NCBI GenBank assembly: GCA_948469375.1
Contig: CAOKLO010000018.1
Span: forward strand, 1 to 58,144
DNA length: 58,144 bases
Direction of reading: 5' to 3'
Origin: an uncultured bacterium
Lineage (GTDB): Bacteria > Bacillota > Clostridia > Oscillospirales > Oscillospiraceae
In this document: positions 16,650-27,313 of the stretch, piece by piece
How positions within the stretch are numbered: position 1 is the stretch's first letter
How the letters are laid out: the number at the start of each line of letters is the position of its first letter
Notes under the pieces: generated by a model
The model's input: only the letters and a program-made list of their open reading frames with translations
Told to the model about the DNA's origin: nothing
The model's database searches: none
Translations under genes and position numbers: made by a program

Positions 16650-17831
<1,182 letters not shown>

Positions 17832-17921: not shown

Positions 17922-18011
17922 TCCTCATCTTGCGTTTCCGCCGGACTTGGCACCTTGCGTTGCAGGTTGCCGTGGCTTCATCGGGCCGGTCCCTCCACCA
18001 CTCTTGATAAG
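17922..18011 (-). ncRNA. SAM-I (S-box) riboswitch
   Basis: On the minus strand the consensus elements appear in order: CTTATCAAGAG, GGTGGAGGGA, GGCCCGATGAAGCC, CGGCAACC, AAGGTGCCAAGTCC, and closing GATGAG that pairs with CTTATC as P1. Upstream is a promoter and downstream a terminator and metK, the classic arrangement for SAM-dependent transcription termination. Confidence 0.96.
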
Positions 18012-18035
18012 GGTTATTCAGTTGTTTACTGTGCT

Positions 18036-18092: not shown

Positions 18093-19475
18093 TCACGTCT
18101 CCTGGGTGCGGAGGGGCAGGATATCCCGCCGGTATACCCGGCGCATGAACCCGGCGCACAGAGTGGCGGAAAACAATTCCGCAATCGGGAAGGCAAACCA
18201 CACCGCTTCCAGCCCGCGAATCCGGGAGAGCAGGAAAGCCACGGGCAGCAACACCACCAGCTGACGCACCAGGGAGGTGGTCAGGCTGAGCACGCCGTGG
18301 TCCAGGGCCTGAAACACCGAACCGCATATAATGCCGAAGCCCGCCAGCAGCCAGCTGAAGGAGATGGTGCGCAGGGCAGATATGCCAATGGTAAGCAGGT
18401 TTCCCGCCGCGTCCTCCTCCGAGCGGAACATATCCAGCAGCGGGCCGGGAACAAGCTGGAACACTGTGAAACCGACAGCCATTAAAATGGTGGCGTACAT
18501 AATGGCCAGCTTGACGGTTTTGATAATCCGGTCCGGCTTGCGTGCGCCGTAGTTGTAGGCCACGATGGGCACCATGCCGTTGCACAAGCCGAACACCGGC
18601 ATAAAGAAGAAGGACTGGAGCTTGAAGTAGATGCCGAACACCGCCGTGGCTGTATCGGTAAAGGCAATGAGGATCTGATTCATGCCGAACACCATCACCG
18701 AACCGATGGACTGCATGACGATGCCGGGCAGGCCCACGCTGTAGATCTCCCGAATGGTCTGGCCGTGGGGACGGAAGCCCTTGAAAGACATGGTCACCTC
18801 GGGATTGCGGGTGGCGTTGAAGAAGATGGACACGCAGCAGCCCAGCATTTGGCCGATGACGGTGGCCAGAGCGGCCCCCGCCACCTCCATTTTGGGGAAG
18901 GGGCCCAGGCCGAAGATGAGGATGGGGTCCAGAATGATATTGGTGATGGCGCCCACCGCCTGGGCGATCATGGTGTAGAAGGTCTGGCCGGTAGCCTGGA
19001 GCAACCGCTCCATGAGCACCGCGAAGAACAGGCCCACGCTCAGACTGCACACAATGGTCAGGTAGTCGGAGCCATAGCTGATGATGCCGGGGATGTCGGT
19101 CTGGACGGTGTAGAACAGCCGGGAGCAGGTGAGCCCCAGCACCACAAACACCAGGCAGCTCAGCGCCATCAGAAAGACGCCGTTTACCGCCGTCCGGTTC
19201 ACCTTTTCTCTGTCGCCCTGGCCCAGGCTCCGGGCCAGCAGGGCGTTGACGCCCACGGCGGTTCCCACGCTGACGGCGATCATCAGGTTCTGCACCGGGA
19301 AGGCTAAGGATACTGCGTTCAGCGCGTCCTGGCTGAGCTGAGACACAAAATAACTGTCCACCACGTTGTAAAAGGCTTGGACCAGCATGGAGATCATGAT
19401 AGGGATGGCCATGTTGAGAAGAAGCTGGTTTACCGGCATGACGCCCATTTTATTTTCACCTTCGGGCCGTTGCAC
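18093..19475 (-). CDS. MATE-family multidrug/cation antiporter
   Basis: The 460-residue protein has twelve predicted membrane segments in two homologous halves with typical MATE sequence: MGVMPVNQLLLNMAIPIMIS, VQAFYNVVDSYFVSQLS, FPVQNLMIAVSVGTAVG, and PIVAYNYGARKPDRI in the second half. These proteins export drugs or metabolites in exchange for Na+ or H+. GTG 19475 is used as start because AAGGAGGAA lies 6 nt before it; the ATG nine codons later has no such site. It has its own promoter and a hairpin-containing leader. Substrate not predictable. Confidence 0.93.
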   Translation of the reverse strand: MQRPEGENKMGVMPVNQLLLNMAIPIMISMLVQAFYNVVDSYFVSQLSQDALNAVSLAFPVQNLMIAVSVGTAVGVNALLARSLGQGDREKVNRTAVNGVFLMALSCLVFVVLGLTCSRLFYTVQTDIPGIISYGSDYLTIVCSLSVGLFFAVLMERLLQATGQTFYTMIAQAVGAITNIILDPILIFGLGPFPKMEVAGAALATVIGQMLGCCVSIFFNATRNPEVTMSFKGFRPHGQTIREIYSVGLPGIVMQSIGSVMVFGMNQILIAFTDTATAVFGIYFKLQSFFFMPVFGLCNGMVPIVAYNYGARKPDRIIKTVKLAIMYATILMAVGFTVFQLVPGPLLDMFRSEEDAAGNLLTIGISALRTISFSWLLAGFGIICGSVFQALDHGVLSLTTSLVRQLVVLLPVAFLLSRIRGLEAVWFAFPIAELFSATLCAGFMRRVYRRDILPLRTQET

Positions 19476-20986: not shown

Positions 20987-21015
20987 TTGACAATCTGTTT
21001 CCGGCGTACTATACT
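20987..21015 (+). promoter_or_regulatory. promoter of the leader peptide/ABC exporter transcript
   Basis: -35 TTGACA (20987-20992), 17-bp spacer, -10 TATACT (21010-21015). The transcript begins about 30 nt before the leader peptide start. Confidence 0.88.
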
Positions 21016-21054
21016 TGTCACTGCTATAAAATGCTACGAAGGGAGGCGCGCACC

Positions 21055-21156
21055 ATGCTGAATATCCGGTTTGAGTTTATCGTTGAGAGTGGAGTTAACA
21101 CCACTGTGAATCACAGGGGGCAGCGGGGATATTTGCGCGCCTGGGGGATGGGATAG
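21055..21156 (+). CDS. 33-residue leader peptide upstream of the ABC exporter
   Basis: ATG 21055 is preceded by GGGAGG at 8 nt and the frame ends at TAG 21156. The peptide begins MLNIRFEFIVESGVNTTVNH and ends RGYLRAWGMG. I do not recognise it as a functional protein. It sits between a strong promoter and a terminator hairpin (21187-21217), and the exporter genes follow the hairpin, so it is best explained as a leader peptide whose translation controls read-through. Its ribosome binding site region GGCGCGCA (21045-21052) can pair with TGCGCGCC (21134-21141) near its own 3' end. Confidence 0.75.
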   Translation: MLNIRFEFIVESGVNTTVNHRGQRGYLRAWGMG

Positions 21157-21217
21157 ATTTCTCCTCCTGTCGTTTTTCGGCTTGCGGCGTCCCTCTGTCC
21201 AGAGGGATGCTTTTTTT
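21143..21217 (+). promoter_or_regulatory. candidate transcription attenuator (antiterminator/terminator)
   Basis: The terminator is GCGTCCCTCT (21187-21196)-gtcc-AGAGGGATGC (21201-21210) followed by seven T. The 5' arm can alternatively pair as CGTCCCTC (21188-21195) with GGGGGATG (21143-21150), which lies in the last codons of the leader peptide. A ribosome that completes the leader would cover 21143-21150 and permit the terminator; a ribosome stalled earlier would free it and favour read-through. Pairings are visible; the mechanism is inferred from B. subtilis bmrB-type attenuation. Confidence 0.65.
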
Positions 21218-21257
21218 GCGTCTATCGCAGGCAGTATGCCGCGGGAAAGGAGAATTC

Positions 21258-23099
21258 ATGGAATCACAGGCAAAGCTGTCCGCACAGGAAAAGCTGGATA
21301 TGGTTCTGCGCCATTTGCGGGGAAACTGGGGCTTTTTCGTGGGGGCAATCCTTCTGGCGTATCTGAACACCATCTGCAATGCCGTCATTCCCCAGATCAT
21401 CAGCGTGACCGTGGACTCGGTGCTGGGGGCCAAGGAGCCGGACCTGCCCGGCTTTCTCACGGCCCTGCTGCCCCTGGAGCTCCTCCGGGAGGACTCCTGG
21501 ACGGCCCTGTGGATCGCGGCGGGGGCGGTGGTGCTGGCTGCGGCGGTGCGGGGCGTGTGCATCTACGGAATGAGGATCAACCTGGCAAAGGGCTCGGAGG
21601 GCTTTGTGAAAAAGCTGCGGGACAACCTGTATGGCCACATCCAGCGCCTGAGCTTTCAATGGCACACCGCCCACGCCACCGGCGACATTATCCAGCGGTG
21701 CACCTCCGACGTGGAGGTCATCCGGACCTTCGTGTGCAACCAGCTGATGGAGGTGCTGCGCACTGTGTTTCTGGTGGCGCTGTACACGGGCATTATGCTG
21801 ATGATGAACTGGAAGCTCGCCCTGGTGTCCCTGGTTTTTATCCCCATTACAGGGCTGGCGTCGGGGGTGTTTTACGGGAAAATTTCCACCCGGTTTCAGG
21901 TGGCCGACGAGGCGGAGGGGGCGCTGACCACCTGTGCCCAGGAGAATCTCACCGGCGTGCGGGTGGTCCGGGCCTTTGGCCGAGAGCGGTTTGAGATTGA
22001 CCGCTTCGCCCAGAAAAATGACCGCTTTTCCGAGCTTTGGGTGGAGTTGGGCAAGGTGCTCAGCGTGTATTGGGCCTCGGGGGTGCTGCTGGTCTGCCTC
22101 CAGATCATGTCGGTCATCGTGGCCGGGACGGTGGCGGCGGTCAACGGAAGCATCACCCTGGGCGATTTCCAGGCCTTTGTCATCTATAACAGCGCTATGG
22201 CGTGGCCGGTGCGCTCCCTGGGACGGGTGCTGTCCGAAATGAGCAAGGCGGGGGTGTCCATGGACCGTGTGGGCTACATCCTGAAGGCCCCGGAGGAATC
22301 CGACAGGCCGGAGGCGGAGAACGTCAGGCTGAGCGGAGACATCGTGTTCGACCACGTCACCTTTGGCTATGAGGGACAGAAGGTGCTGAACGACGTGTCC
22401 TTTACCATTCCCTGGGGGAGCACCTTTGCCATTTTGGGGGGCACGGGCTCGGGCAAATCCACCCTGGTCCACCTGCTGGACCGCCTTTATGACCTGGACG
22501 GTGGGCAGGGGACCATCACCATCGGCGGGGTGGATATCCGGGACATCCGGCGGGAAGACCTGCGCCGTCAGATCGGCCTGGTGCTCCAGGAGCCCTTTCT
22601 GTTTTCCCAGACCATCCGGGAGAACATCGCCGCCACCCGGCCCGGGACTCCGGAGGAGGAGCTGCGCCAATGCGCGGAAACCGCCTGCGTGGACGAGGCC
22701 ATCGCGGACCTGCCCAATGGATACGAGACGGTGGTGGGCGAGCGGGGGGTGACCCTGTCCGGCGGGCAGAAGCAGCGGGTGGCCATTGCCCGGATGCTGC
22801 TGCAAAACGCCCCGGTTATGGTATTTGACGACTCTTTGTCCGCAGTGGACGCAGAGACGGACGCGAAAATCCGCGCCGCCCTAAAGGAGCGTATGTCCCA
22901 AGCCACGGTTATTTTGATCTCCCACCGGGTGACGACGCTGATGCAGGCGGACCGTATCCTGGTGCTGGACAAGGGCCGGGCGGCGGACGTGGGAACTCAC
23001 GCCGAGCTGATTGCCCGTCCTGGCATTTACAAAGAGATTTATGACATTCAAATGAGCAGCGACGACAGGGCGATGGTGAAGGAAGGAGGGGACGCCTGA
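21258..23099 (+). CDS. ABC multidrug exporter half-transporter, BmrC-like (degenerate ATPase site)
   Basis: A 613-residue TMD-NBD half transporter with six membrane helices in residues 30-330 and an ATPase domain from about 345. Walker A is GGTGSGKST, the signature LSGGQ is intact, but Walker B reads VMVFDDSLSAVD: the catalytic glutamate is replaced by D525. That replacement is the mark of the asymmetric partner in heterodimeric exporters (BmrC, TM287). ATG 21258 follows AAAGGAG. The stop overlaps the next gene's ATG by one base, so the two are coupled and form the heterodimer. Probably exports hydrophobic drugs; expression appears attenuator-controlled. Confidence 0.92.
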   Translation: MESQAKLSAQEKLDMVLRHLRGNWGFFVGAILLAYLNTICNAVIPQIISVTVDSVLGAKEPDLPGFLTALLPLELLREDSWTALWIAAGAVVLAAAVRGVCIYGMRINLAKGSEGFVKKLRDNLYGHIQRLSFQWHTAHATGDIIQRCTSDVEVIRTFVCNQLMEVLRTVFLVALYTGIMLMMNWKLALVSLVFIPITGLASGVFYGKISTRFQVADEAEGALTTCAQENLTGVRVVRAFGRERFEIDRFAQKNDRFSELWVELGKVLSVYWASGVLLVCLQIMSVIVAGTVAAVNGSITLGDFQAFVIYNSAMAWPVRSLGRVLSEMSKAGVSMDRVGYILKAPEESDRPEAENVRLSGDIVFDHVTFGYEGQKVLNDVSFTIPWGSTFAILGGTGSGKSTLVHLLDRLYDLDGGQGTITIGGVDIRDIRREDLRRQIGLVLQEPFLFSQTIRENIAATRPGTPEEELRQCAETACVDEAIADLPNGYETVVGERGVTLSGGQKQRVAIARMLLQNAPVMVFDDSLSAVDAETDAKIRAALKERMSQATVILISHRVTTLMQADRILVLDKGRAADVGTHAELIARPGIYKEIYDIQMSSDDRAMVKEGGDA

Positions 23100-24928
23100 T
23101 GGCCGCCTTTGACGAAAAGGAATACACACAGGCCTTTGACTGGTCCATTTGGAAACGTCTGTTCCCAATTTTAAGCCGCTTCAAGCGGTATTTTATCGGA
23201 ATGATTGGAACCGCCGCCGTTTCCGACCTGGTGGACGCGGCGATGCCCCTGTTCCAGATGTACGCCATCGCCCACTTTATTGAGGTTGGCGCCTTGGACG
23301 GGCTGGTCCCCTTTGCAGTGTGCTACGGGGCAGTGATTTTGCTCCAAAGCGTCCTGGTGGTGGTGAGCACGCGTTATACCATGAAGATCGAGATGTATCT
23401 GGGCCGGGACCTGCGCCGGGAGCTGTTCGAGCACCTCCAAATCCTGTCCATATCCTTTTACAACGTTACCCCGGTGGGCTACCTGCTCACCCGGGTGACC
23501 AACGACACCAACCGCATCGCGGGCAATCTGGCCTGGGGACTGCTGGATGTGGTGGACGTGGTGTTCTATGTGACCAGTACCTTTGTCCTCATGCTGACGC
23601 TCAACTGGCAGCTTGCCCTGGTGGTTATGCTGGTGGTGCCCTTTGTGGCGGTGCTCACCGTGTATTTTCAGCCCCGCATCCTCCACTGGACCCGGAAGGT
23701 GCGCAAGATCAACTCCAAAATCACCGGAGCCTTCAACGAGGGCATCACCGGGGCAAAAACCTCCAAAACCCTGGTCATTGAGGACCAAAGCATTCGGAAT
23801 TTCAAGGACCTGACGGAAAACATGAACCGCTCCGCCGTCCGGGCGGCCCGGCTCAACGGGGTGTATATCCCGGTGACGCTGTTTTTCTCCACCCTGACGG
23901 TGGCCATCGTGCTGCTGCGGGGCGGCCGGCTGGTGGAGGAGCAGGTGATGGCTATCGCCACGCTGTCCGTGTTCATCACCTACGCCATGGGCATTTTTGA
24001 GCCCATCCAGAACCTGGCCGGCAACCTGGCGGAGTTCATCGCGGTACAGGCTTCCATCGAGCGGGTCACCGGCCTGCTGGAGGAGGAGCCCCAGATCACC
24101 GATACGCCTGAGGTGACGGAGAAATTTGGCGACTCCTTTAATCCAAGGCGGGAGAACTGGGAGCCGCTGGAGGGAGAGATCGAATTCAAGGACGTGACCT
24201 TCCGCTATCCCGACGGTGGGGACAACGTGCTGGAGCATTTCAACCTGCGCATACCCGCCGGGACCACCGTGGCCATCGTGGGGGAGACGGGAGCGGGCAA
24301 ATCCACCCTGGTCAACCTGGCCTGCCGCTTTTTCGAGCCCACCGAGGGCCAAATTCTGATTGACGGCCGGGACTACCGGGAGCGCAGCCAGCTTTGGCTT
24401 CACTCCAACATCGGCTACGTGCTGCAAAGCCCCCACCTGTTTTCCGGCTCAGTGCGGGAAAACATCCGCTACGGACGGCTGGATGCCACGGACGAGGAGA
24501 TCGAAGCGGCGGCAAGGGCCGTATCGGCGGACAAGGTGGTGGCCAAGTTGGAGCAGGGCTGGGACAGCGACGTGGGCGAGGAGGGCGACCGCCTGTCCAT
24601 GGGGGAGAAGCAGCTGATTTCCTTCGCCCGGGCGGTGCTGGCCGACCCGCGTATTTTTGTGCTGGACGAGGCCACCTCCTCCATCGACACCCAGACCGAG
24701 CAGGATATCCAGAACGCCATCGACCATCTTCTGCGGGACCGCACGTCGTTTTTGATTGCCCACCGCCTGTCCACCATCCGCAAGGCGGATATGATCCTGG
24801 TGGTGCGGGACGGAAAAATCGTGGAGCAGGGCACCCATCTGTCCCTGCTGAAAAAGCGGGGGTACTATCACGACCTGTACAGCAGGCAGTTTGCCGAGGA
24901 GAACGCGGCAAAGGTGTTTGGCGCCTGA
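23099..24928 (+). CDS. ABC multidrug exporter half-transporter, BmrD-like (catalytic ATPase site)
   Basis: The 609-residue partner has six membrane helices (about 20-320) and an NBD with Walker A GETGAGKST and canonical Walker B FVLDEATSSID (E524). Its signature is LSMGE (499-503) instead of LSGGQ. Combined with the first subunit, this gives one normal and one degenerate nucleotide site, exactly the heterodimeric ABC exporter pattern. It carries an insertion before the NBD (TEKFGDSFNPRRENWEPLEG). ATG overlaps the upstream TGA (TGATG). A terminator follows. Confidence 0.93.
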   Translation: MAAFDEKEYTQAFDWSIWKRLFPILSRFKRYFIGMIGTAAVSDLVDAAMPLFQMYAIAHFIEVGALDGLVPFAVCYGAVILLQSVLVVVSTRYTMKIEMYLGRDLRRELFEHLQILSISFYNVTPVGYLLTRVTNDTNRIAGNLAWGLLDVVDVVFYVTSTFVLMLTLNWQLALVVMLVVPFVAVLTVYFQPRILHWTRKVRKINSKITGAFNEGITGAKTSKTLVIEDQSIRNFKDLTENMNRSAVRAARLNGVYIPVTLFFSTLTVAIVLLRGGRLVEEQVMAIATLSVFITYAMGIFEPIQNLAGNLAEFIAVQASIERVTGLLEEEPQITDTPEVTEKFGDSFNPRRENWEPLEGEIEFKDVTFRYPDGGDNVLEHFNLRIPAGTTVAIVGETGAGKSTLVNLACRFFEPTEGQILIDGRDYRERSQLWLHSNIGYVLQSPHLFSGSVRENIRYGRLDATDEEIEAAARAVSADKVVAKLEQGWDSDVGEEGDRLSMGEKQLISFARAVLADPRIFVLDEATSSIDTQTEQDIQNAIDHLLRDRTSFLIAHRLSTIRKADMILVVRDGKIVEQGTHLSLLKKRGYYHDLYSRQFAEENAAKVFGA

Positions 24929-25808: not shown

Positions 25809-27200
25809 TTATTTTTTTCCGGCCTGGGGCTTCAGCGGCGTGCCCTCCCGGGACATCCGCCGGAACAGGTAAATCAGTATGGCTACGGCGGCGATGGCTA
25901 GCACTACCTCGGCCACGGTCTGGGCGCTGGCCAGACCGTAGAGGGGGTCAAGATAGTTGAGCAGGTAAAGGGCGGGGATTTCCAGAATGATTTTACGCAG
26001 AATGGCGAACAGCAGGGCATATTGGCCCAGGCCGCAGGCCTGAAACACGCCCACCGCCAGGAAATCCAGGCAGAGGAAGGGCTGGGCGATGCACATGCGT
26101 CGCAGGAACCGGGAGCCATAGGCCACCACGGCCTCGGTTTTCATGAACATACCGATCAGCGCACTGGAGCCGAAGAAGTAGCCCGCAGATACCGCGACCG
26201 AGAAGGCCAGGGTGATCTTTTCCGTGAAGATAACGGATTTTTTCAGCCGTTCGCAGTTGCCGCTGCCGTAGTTGTAGCTCACCATGGGCATCAGGCCCTG
26301 GGACATGCCCAGAGCGATGTACATGGGGATCATGTTGATTTTATAGGAGATGCCCATGGCGGCGATGGCGTCCGGCCCGAAAACGGCGGTGAAGTTGTTG
26401 AGTACCGTCATGCCGGTGACATTTAGCAGATTTTGGATGGAGGCGGGAATGCCTACGCCGAACACGCCGTGGACCAGTTCCCGGCGGGGCCGGGCCATGG
26501 CGGGCTGGAGGCAGACGAAGGTCTTTCCCCGCCGGACAAACAGCAGCACGAAGAAATAGAAGCAGGCCACGCAGTTGGACAGGAAGGTGGCCAGTCCCGC
26601 CCCCGCCGCTCCCATGTTCAAGCCCCAGGGGAGGATGAAAATGGGGTCCAGCACGATGTTCAGCGCACAGCCGCTCATGGTGCCGATGCTGGCGTGGAGG
26701 GTGGCCCCCTCCGAGCGAACCAGATAGGCCATGACCACGTTCAGGATGGCGGGGGCGGCCCCGCAGGTGACGGTCCAGCGCATGTATTCCAGGGTGGCCC
26801 GGGTGGTATCCGCGTCCGCCCCCAGCAGCACCAGCAGAGGGGCGCGGAACAGGGTGGTAAAAATAGAGAACAGAACGCCGCAGATCAGTGCGCAGTAGAA
26901 GCCGAAGGCGGAGCTGCGCCGTACCGTGTCGTAATCCTTTGCTCCCAGGGCCCGGCTCATCATGCTGCTCGAGCCCACACCGAACAGGTTGTTGACCGCG
27001 TTGAAGGCCAGCAGCACCGGCGCGGCCAGGGTGACGGCGGAGTTTTGAATGGGGTCTTGGAGCATCCCGACAAAATAGGTGTCGGCCAGGTTGTAAAGCA
27101 CCATCACAAGCGAGCTGAGCACGGTGGGGATGGACAGGGTGAGCACTGCCTTGGGGATAGGCATCCGTTCAAAAAGCTCCGCCTTCTGTGTGTTTTCCAT
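25809..27200 (-). CDS. MATE-family efflux transporter (second copy)
   Basis: A 463-residue protein with twelve membrane segments and MATE motifs: SIPTVLSSLVMVLYNLADTY, GVGSSSMMSRALG, GCALNIVLDPIFI and MPMVSYNYGSGN. It differs clearly from the MATE protein at 18093-19475, so it is a paralogue of another subgroup rather than a recent duplicate. MENTQKAELFERMPIPK at 27200 is chosen as start (GAGGGAAC upstream); an in-frame upstream codon exists but lacks a site. A TATAAT-like -10 lies near 27240. Substrate unknown. Confidence 0.92.
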   Translation of the reverse strand: MENTQKAELFERMPIPKAVLTLSIPTVLSSLVMVLYNLADTYFVGMLQDPIQNSAVTLAAPVLLAFNAVNNLFGVGSSSMMSRALGAKDYDTVRRSSAFGFYCALICGVLFSIFTTLFRAPLLVLLGADADTTRATLEYMRWTVTCGAAPAILNVVMAYLVRSEGATLHASIGTMSGCALNIVLDPIFILPWGLNMGAAGAGLATFLSNCVACFYFFVLLFVRRGKTFVCLQPAMARPRRELVHGVFGVGIPASIQNLLNVTGMTVLNNFTAVFGPDAIAAMGISYKINMIPMYIALGMSQGLMPMVSYNYGSGNCERLKKSVIFTEKITLAFSVAVSAGYFFGSSALIGMFMKTEAVVAYGSRFLRRMCIAQPFLCLDFLAVGVFQACGLGQYALLFAILRKIILEIPALYLLNYLDPLYGLASAQTVAEVVLAIAAVAILIYLFRRMSREGTPLKPQAGKK

Positions 27201-27313
27201 AAGGTTCCCTCGATTTCGTGAAATAATCTTAAAATTCATTATAACACGAACCATTGGGAAAGGAAACCGATATTTTGAACAAAAAAGCGGCCTTCCTCAC
27301 GAAAAAAAGCCGT

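Follow-up and report, generated by a model that had tools for sequence, protein, structure and literature searches.

The contig CAOKLO010000018.1 of an uncultured bacterium of the Oscillospiraceae (GenBank assembly GCA_948469375.1), whose 58,144 nucleotides (nt) are referred to below as the window, carries two adjacent genes for the halves of an ATP-binding cassette (ABC) exporter, preceded by a promoter, a short leader open reading frame (ORF) with its own Shine-Dalgarno (SD) sequence, and an intrinsic terminator (Table 1). Comparison of this leader with its relatives and folding of its RNA suggest that the region is probably a ribosome-mediated transcription attenuator, in which three competing RNA structures would decide whether the BmrCD-like exporter is transcribed. 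An earlier reading of the window, made from its letters alone (the sequence-only reading), had noted a consensus promoter, a 33-codon frame with a strong SD and exporter genes beyond the terminator, and all three are found as described; the terminator, which it called a perfect stem of 10 base pairs (bp) with seven T, does have the 10 pairs and the T run, but one of the pairs is G-U. Look-alike promoter boxes lie 5′ of many relatives' leaders, as judged by eye. The start of the first exporter gene was taken as the ATG at 21258 because the longer frame, from 21207, starts within the terminator.

Table 1. Coordinates of the leader elements and exporter genes in the window
Feature	Coordinates	Strand	Remarks
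Sigma-A-type promoter TTGACA-17-TATACT	20987..21015	+	Consensus match at 11/12 positions
Leader Shine-Dalgarno AAGGGAGG	21039..21046	+	Overlaps P1 5′ arm
P1 5′ arm AGGCGCGCA	21044..21052	+	Anti-antiterminator; overlaps leader SD
Leader ORF, peptide MLNIRFEFIVESGVNTTVNHRGQRGYLRAWGMG	21055..21156	+	33 codons + TAG
Antiterminator 5′ strand GGGGATATTTGCGCGCC	21125..21141	+	GCGCGCC in common with P1
P1 3′ arm TGCGCGCCT	21134..21142	+	Inside leader codons L-R-A
P2 hairpin across leader stop codon	21143..21167	+	21143-21153 with 21158-21167; nested in antiterminator
Antiterminator 3′ strand GGCTTGCGGCGTCCCT	21179..21194	+	Overlaps terminator 5′ arm
Intrinsic terminator	21187..21217	+	10-bp stem (21187-21196 with 21201-21210), 4-nt loop, seven T
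Exporter Shine-Dalgarno AAAGGAG	21246..21252	+	
ABC exporter half 1, BmrC/YheI-like	21258..23099	+	613 amino acids; Walker B ends FDD, signature LSGGQKQR
ABC exporter half 2, BmrD/YheH- and TM_0288-like	23099..24928	+	609 amino acids; Walker B ends LDE, signature LSMGEKQL

Pfam recognises ABC membrane and ATPase parts in both exporter halves. Of the solved bacterial structures, the best match to half 1 is BmrC/YheI, and TM_0288 and BmrD/YheH score among the highest with half 2; overall, eukaryotic P-glycoprotein-type proteins score best. No NCBIfam model, among the 25 listed, exceeds its cut-off for either half. The FDD ending of Walker B in half 1 and the LSMGE signature of half 2 are in keeping with one degenerate ATP site. 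From these sequence features the exporter appears to be a BmrCD-like heterodimeric ABC exporter, likely a multidrug pump.

The working set comprised 33 leaders, those of the window and 32 relatives, taken from 36 exporter upstream regions; a region cut by its contig (L026), one with 73 nt of contig (L022) and a leaderless one (L050) were left out. Of 37 loci from named genomes, six more distant ones (L047-L052) were used, and L031-L046, mostly repeat contigs, and L053-L067, at most 33% identical, were unused. Conservation of the leader frame in relatives was borne out, an SD-led ORF of 24-56 codons being present in 33 of 35 exporter upstream regions. Five of the six distant loci have the leader (L047, L048, L049, L051, L052). 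Within a same-genus sample of 42 genomes, an exporter orthologue, defined by at least 66% identity over the matched part, was found in 32. A covariance model (R1), built from 22 leaders, 20 of them same-genus, also matches a leader in 32 of the 42 genomes; the leader is present in 30 of the 32 genomes with the exporter, among which the 20 training rows match by construction. In one genome (G030) leader and exporter are on separate contigs, in another (G003) the leader falls below the R1 threshold and was recognised by eye, and in a third (G018) the contig begins inside the exporter gene; in G016 and G024 the leader is near a contig end and the exporter orthologue is absent from the assembly. 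In two of these genomes (L145 in G030 and L144 in G024) the same foreign sequence follows the leader, near the expected exporter start; in G030, where the exporter is on another contig, it resembles a transposable element (by eye, unconfirmed). At two loci, L141 (G040) and L142 (G023), the promoter-leader-terminator unit stands in tandem duplicate before one exporter, the upstream leader in G040 being MDFNKIIEVKLLYKDESKIENSGLLGYLCLCGLK.

In P1, the ribosome-binding site of the leader is paired with the GCGCGCC stretch of its own last codons. The sequence-only reading had proposed that the SD can pair with TGCGCGCC, and this 9-bp pairing indeed occurs in the minimum-free-energy (MFE) fold of the window RNA; in the shuffle comparison P1 attains at least six expected pairs in 20/33 leaders versus 0/330 shuffles. 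In a 22-row alignment (A1), the GGAG of the leader SD occupies the invariant columns 8-11, and 97.5% of the P1 cells pair, with nine double-change cells. Swap tests, in which own partners were compared with permuted ones in 20 clade representatives (5000 permutations, not fully phylogeny-corrected), gave z = -6.1 for P1, with 0/5000 permutations as good, close beside the terminator as positive control (z = -6.6). Pair changes were counted in 31 rows, with L048 and L051 excluded for their different register. At least five state changes of the SD variant GGCGCAC are counted along the exporter tree (gains not separated from losses), and its match, GTGCGCC, is present in all eight rows with this variant; another two rows have T opposite G at the same P1 position, and L010 shows a different double change, GGCGTGC with GCACGCC. 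The affected codon reads R, C or H; therefore the pairing, not the peptide, is conserved.

P1 and the antiterminator share GCGCGCC, and P1 is therefore an anti-antiterminator. To locate the antiterminator, transcripts ending at the terminator loop were folded while the SD region was kept from pairing, and the supported form is GGGGATATTTGCGCGCC paired with GGCTTGCGGCGTCCCT, with the stop-codon hairpin P2, whose 5′ arm is GGGGGATGGG, nested inside. Own antiterminator strands surpass permuted ones (z = -3.9, 1/5000 as good), and 83.7% of the antiterminator cells pair in alignment A1 compared with at most 53.0% when the strands are slid. P2 reaches z = -5.0 (0/5000 as good) and has at least five pairs in 29/33 leaders versus 118/330 shuffles. 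The window's terminator hairpin has a folding energy of -16.5 kcal/mol by itself, compared with -25.8 kcal/mol for antiterminator plus P2.

The sequence-only reading had also seen a ribosome-sensing transcription attenuator here, and this class stands; its wiring does not, as the antiterminator 5′ strand is GGGGATATTTGCGCGCC rather than GGGGGATG. Antitermination through pairing of the leader-end GGGGGATG with CGTCCCTC is formable in the window, with eight pairs, two of them G-U, and a duplex energy of -13.9 kcal/mol. Swapped partners, however, equal the own ones (z = +0.3, 1218/2000 permutations as good; z = -0.3, 1951/5000 in the 20 representatives), GGGGGATG against the terminator arm alone gives z = -1.4 with 385/5000 as good, and at least five pairs form in 1/33 modelled leaders. 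The same bases make P2, where own partners beat swapped ones. This antiterminator is thus rejected as not conserved, and a switch built on it is very unlikely; of the two pairings for which covariation in relatives had been called for, the SD pairing shows compensated changes on several branches and GGGGGATG:CGTCCCTC does not. The region beyond the stop codon might also serve in control of exporter translation, in which the pyrimidine tract TTTCTCCTCC would pair with the exporter SD in readthrough transcripts. The complementarity is visible in L001, L002, L004 and L008, but it is lost in L007, L011 and L012 although P2 is kept there (both by eye), and any CT-rich tract pairs with purine-rich SDs, so that such control appears improbable.

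In the attenuator mechanism proposed here, P1 would hold GCGCGCC when no ribosome is present, or after normal translation and release, and the terminator would form, leaving the exporter off. A ribosome stalled in the early leader would mask the SD so that P1 could not form; the antiterminator would then form ahead of terminator completion and the exporter would be transcribed. At the stop codon, a paused ribosome would cover the antiterminator strand, and stalls late in the leader are therefore not expected to induce. In 21/33 leaders 12 nt separate the end of the P1 arm from the stop, and a terminating ribosome should, judging from typical ribosome footprint sizes, cover part of it. An oligonucleotide over the SD would be expected to give readthrough, and one over GGGGATATTTG termination. 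A folding model, with thresholds of at least six expected pairs for P1 and at least five for the antiterminator and with the ribosome P site set at a given codon, yields P1 in 24/33 leaders and the antiterminator in 3/33 without a ribosome; with the P site at codon 8, the antiterminator is predicted in 31/33 leaders. When the sequence preceding the terminator arm is shuffled, the antiterminator forms in 101/330 shuffles.

Length differences among the leaders are multiples of three, and amino-acid constraint is weak. In the middle of the leader 17/49 single changes are synonymous versus 22% expected (p = 0.026, 10 pairs), and this slight excess, together with the strong SD and promoter, is what speaks for a gene that encodes a small functional protein and ends in an ordinary terminator, beside which the exporter would be expressed independently; with peptides that diverge strongly across clades while the pairings are kept, and with a leader that mostly tracks the exporter, such a gene is highly improbable. 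The 33 leaders contain no run of codons for a single amino acid, the commonest residue being V at 9.6% of 581 positions, and no +X+ motif (the macrolide-arrest pattern R/K-X-R/K) common to the 33 peptides was seen by eye. Given a BmrCD-like target, the lack of a codon run, and the vmlR and bmrB precedents described below, ribosome-targeting drugs or compounds that slow early elongation would, by analogy, be the most likely inducers. In Escherichia coli toiL, one upstream ORF (uORF) can sense several drug classes (PMC12121999). Codon 4 (window 21064-21066) starts with A in 30/33 leaders, and residue 4 is Thr in 16/33; the corresponding background is 8/45 SD-preceded long window ORFs, a crude figure that includes false frames. 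Since the rows are related, this bias is no more than a lead; the leader of cat-86 reads MVKTD.

Among known systems, Bacillus subtilis vmlR offers the closest switching logic: drug-stalled ribosomes block an anti-antiterminator, the antiterminator forms and the intrinsic terminator is avoided (PMC9226507). The vmlR uORF lies inside the anti-antiterminator hairpin (PMC9226507), and the logic equals that of the exporter leader, in which an SD-led ORF is found between promoter and gene, an intrinsic terminator between ORF and gene, an antiterminator (predicted, with swap-test support) overlapping the terminator, and an anti-antiterminator, P1, containing the ORF. The vmlR uORF, however, has a few codons (MIN) and its gene encodes an ABC-F factor (PMC9226507), whereas here the ORF has 24-56 codons, the genes encode a BmrCD-like exporter, and the antiterminator encloses a stop-codon hairpin. 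B. subtilis bmrB-bmrCD, which is induced by ribosome-targeting drugs, likewise has a translated leader ORF, a terminator and a proposed antiterminator before a homologous heterodimeric ABC exporter (PMC4191407); YheI for half 1 and YheH for half 2 are among the best bacterial solved relatives of the window exporter. In bmrB the terminator is within the coding sequence (PMC4191407), whereas here it lies 30 nt past the stop at 21156. Both systems were compared by their description. Clostridioides difficile cplR and Listeria hflXr/rli80 also combine a short uORF with alternative terminator and antiterminator in Gram-positive bacteria, but control different genes (PMC10201436, PMC6310831); in cplR the uORF reads MRI and the SD of the gene is also locked up in the terminator stem (PMC10201436), and the hflXr uORF has 14 codons with RLR (PMC6310831). 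A further report describes numerous attenuator candidates upstream of ABC transporters, including one for a multidrug export operon in lactobacilli (PMC2965389). The exporter leader is not described in titles or abstract openings among the literature matches listed. Nothing in Rfam release 15 reaches its gathering score over the leader, with two sub-threshold matches (E = 0.86 and 1.5). The exporter leader is probably an attenuator with the logic of vmlR and a function resembling that of bmrB-bmrCD, built on an SD-anchored RNA without an Rfam entry.

Searches beyond the genus returned further leaders. Across 300 family genomes R1 matched 36 at E ≤ 0.1, two of them same-genus, and 15 R1 loci were inspected, 14 from non-genus family matches and one weak same-genus match. 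Seven precede exporter orthologues (66-71% identity), one another ABC exporter, one a metN-like gene and two other genes with a leader-like ORF; four (L134, L135, L138, L140) are without the architecture. At L136 (G371) an SD-led leader-like ORF and a terminator stand before another ABC exporter, recognised by tblastn to the window exporter; similar ORFs with a terminator, judged by eye, precede a gene without assignment at L130 (G297) and a response-regulator-like gene at L139 (G047). A DNA-pattern search gave 30 matches in 28 of the 42 genus genomes, 25 judged to be this leader and five other sequence. In the family, 70/300 genomes matched, most of them looking by eye like chance matches within genes; the clear ones are the window, G007, two exporter leaders (G370, G272) and five Met-rich leaders (G283, G194, G257, G306, G055). 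Upstream of 15 more distant exporter homologues (43-54% identity), L233 and L238 are leader-like, L230 is doubtful, and nothing convincing was seen at the other 12. In L238 (G043) and L233 (G074), whose exporter homologues are 44-45% identical, an SD-led ORF with SD complementarity occurs together with a terminator that is unrelated in sequence; the MFE of L238 has an antiterminator-like fold instead of P1, L233 has no extended antiterminator, and the switch is thus matched only partly.

The R1 match before the metN-like gene (L132) hints at another use of the design. The gene encodes an ABC ATPase with a NIL domain (best NCBIfam model MetN, 358 bits, cut-off 499.7), and the leader, MRNCYGMMMDRMGMMRMPTSPRACFPVVTR, has the pairing of SD with GCGCGCC. 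Met-rich leaders upstream of metN-like genes are predicted if the design is a stall sensor. In a comparison of 22 metN-like loci, drawn from 60 genomes, SD-led upstream ORFs with at least five Met were found in 10 (L146-L150 and L158-L162, with 6-12 Met) versus 2/1100 shuffles; the 35 exporter upstream regions contain none. SD pairing occurs in three of the ten: L146, in the same place as in L132, and L162 have an exact SD complement of at least 7 nt, and L148 shows P1 in its MFE, with G-U pairs. Folding predicts an antiterminator in L148 and only a partial one in L132. From their sequences these leaders look like methionine-starvation leader-peptide attenuation of this order. In amino-acid attenuators of the trp/his type, competing pairings are set by ribosome position; the exporter leaders have competing pairings as well, but are without a regulatory codon run. 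The metL leader of Streptomyces lividans, Met-containing and located before the methionine importer metNIQ, differs in being leaderless and without a typical terminator (PMC8079986). The Met-rich metN leaders are closer than the exporter leaders to the trp/his and metL types, and besides S. lividans no Met-containing leader before metNIQ is reported among the literature matches listed.

The Met-rich leaders also argue that the design is not bound to drugs, since three with SD pairing precede metN-like genes, and the variability of the exporter leaders is in keeping with a stall sensor for general translation slowdown, by amino-acid or tRNA shortage or endogenous stress, with the exporter carrying a metabolite or peptide. 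As the exporter leaders have no dominant amino acid and the close solved bacterial relatives of the exporter are named multidrug exporters, this alternative is considered unlikely. Furthermore, Met-rich and exporter leaders are consistent, in sequence, with a common stall-sensing chassis, homology between them being only a possibility. Tentatively, the Oscillospiraceae may share one recurrent RNA chassis, made of an SD-anchored anti-antiterminator and a stop-codon hairpin, with the reading frame exchangeable as a plug-in sensor; this is rather doubtful because the SD pairing is present in only three of the ten Met-rich metN leaders.

Several observations weigh against the drug-responsive attenuator proposed for the exporter leader. 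Column covariation of the antiterminator in alignment A1 shows no clear excess over shuffles, and for this reason support was sought in a wider set (z = -3.6, 2/2000 as good). The frequency of P2 (118/330) and of the antiterminator (101/330) in shuffles and the incomplete phylogeny correction of the swap tests weaken the support for the pairings, and the lowest p that a sign test for P1 reaches with its five independent pairs is 0.0625. In the folding model, P1 of the window has only 4.1 expected pairs without a ribosome, and nine of the 33 leaders stay below six; L029 and L030 form little antiterminator with the ribosome at codon 8, and L027, L047 and L051 form it even without one. The window needs the ribosome near codons 8-10, codons 2-6 and 12 giving 0.4-2.0 pairs. 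L050, with an exporter 67% identical, has no leader within the 400 nt upstream examined. Six Met-rich leaders have no exact SD complement of at least 6 nt and two more have only a 6-nt one. Moreover, no known arrest motif names the inducer, because the peptide is barely conserved. The architecture is nevertheless well supported, and the inducer is inferred.

Further features of the region are noted here. After the T run of the terminator, GCGTC can pair with the terminator 3′ arm in the window (21201-21226) and in relatives, a pairing equalled by 13/2000 partner permutations. An S-adenosylmethionine (SAM) riboswitch (RF00162, 77.7 bits) at 17922-18013 on the minus strand precedes an S-adenosylmethionine synthetase gene (16650-17831; Pfam). 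Two MATE efflux transporter genes, at 18093-19475 and 25809-27254 on the minus strand, flank the exporter region, both recognised by Pfam MatE and by NCBIfam TIGR00797 above its cut-off.

If a common chassis does exist, neutral, fast-changing frames would let ABC exporters respond broadly to stalls (drugs), and Met-rich frames would let metNI respond to methionine starvation, the RNA being the conserved part. Comparing exporter with Met-rich metN leaders amounts to a natural experiment in which the RNA switch can be told apart from what its ORF senses. For the exporter leader, the compensated changes pinpoint the bases to alter, and the three-state model is directly testable. If the attenuator reading is correct, a likely multidrug exporter of uncultured Oscillospiraceae would be controlled by a well-conserved family of attenuators that Rfam release 15 does not contain.

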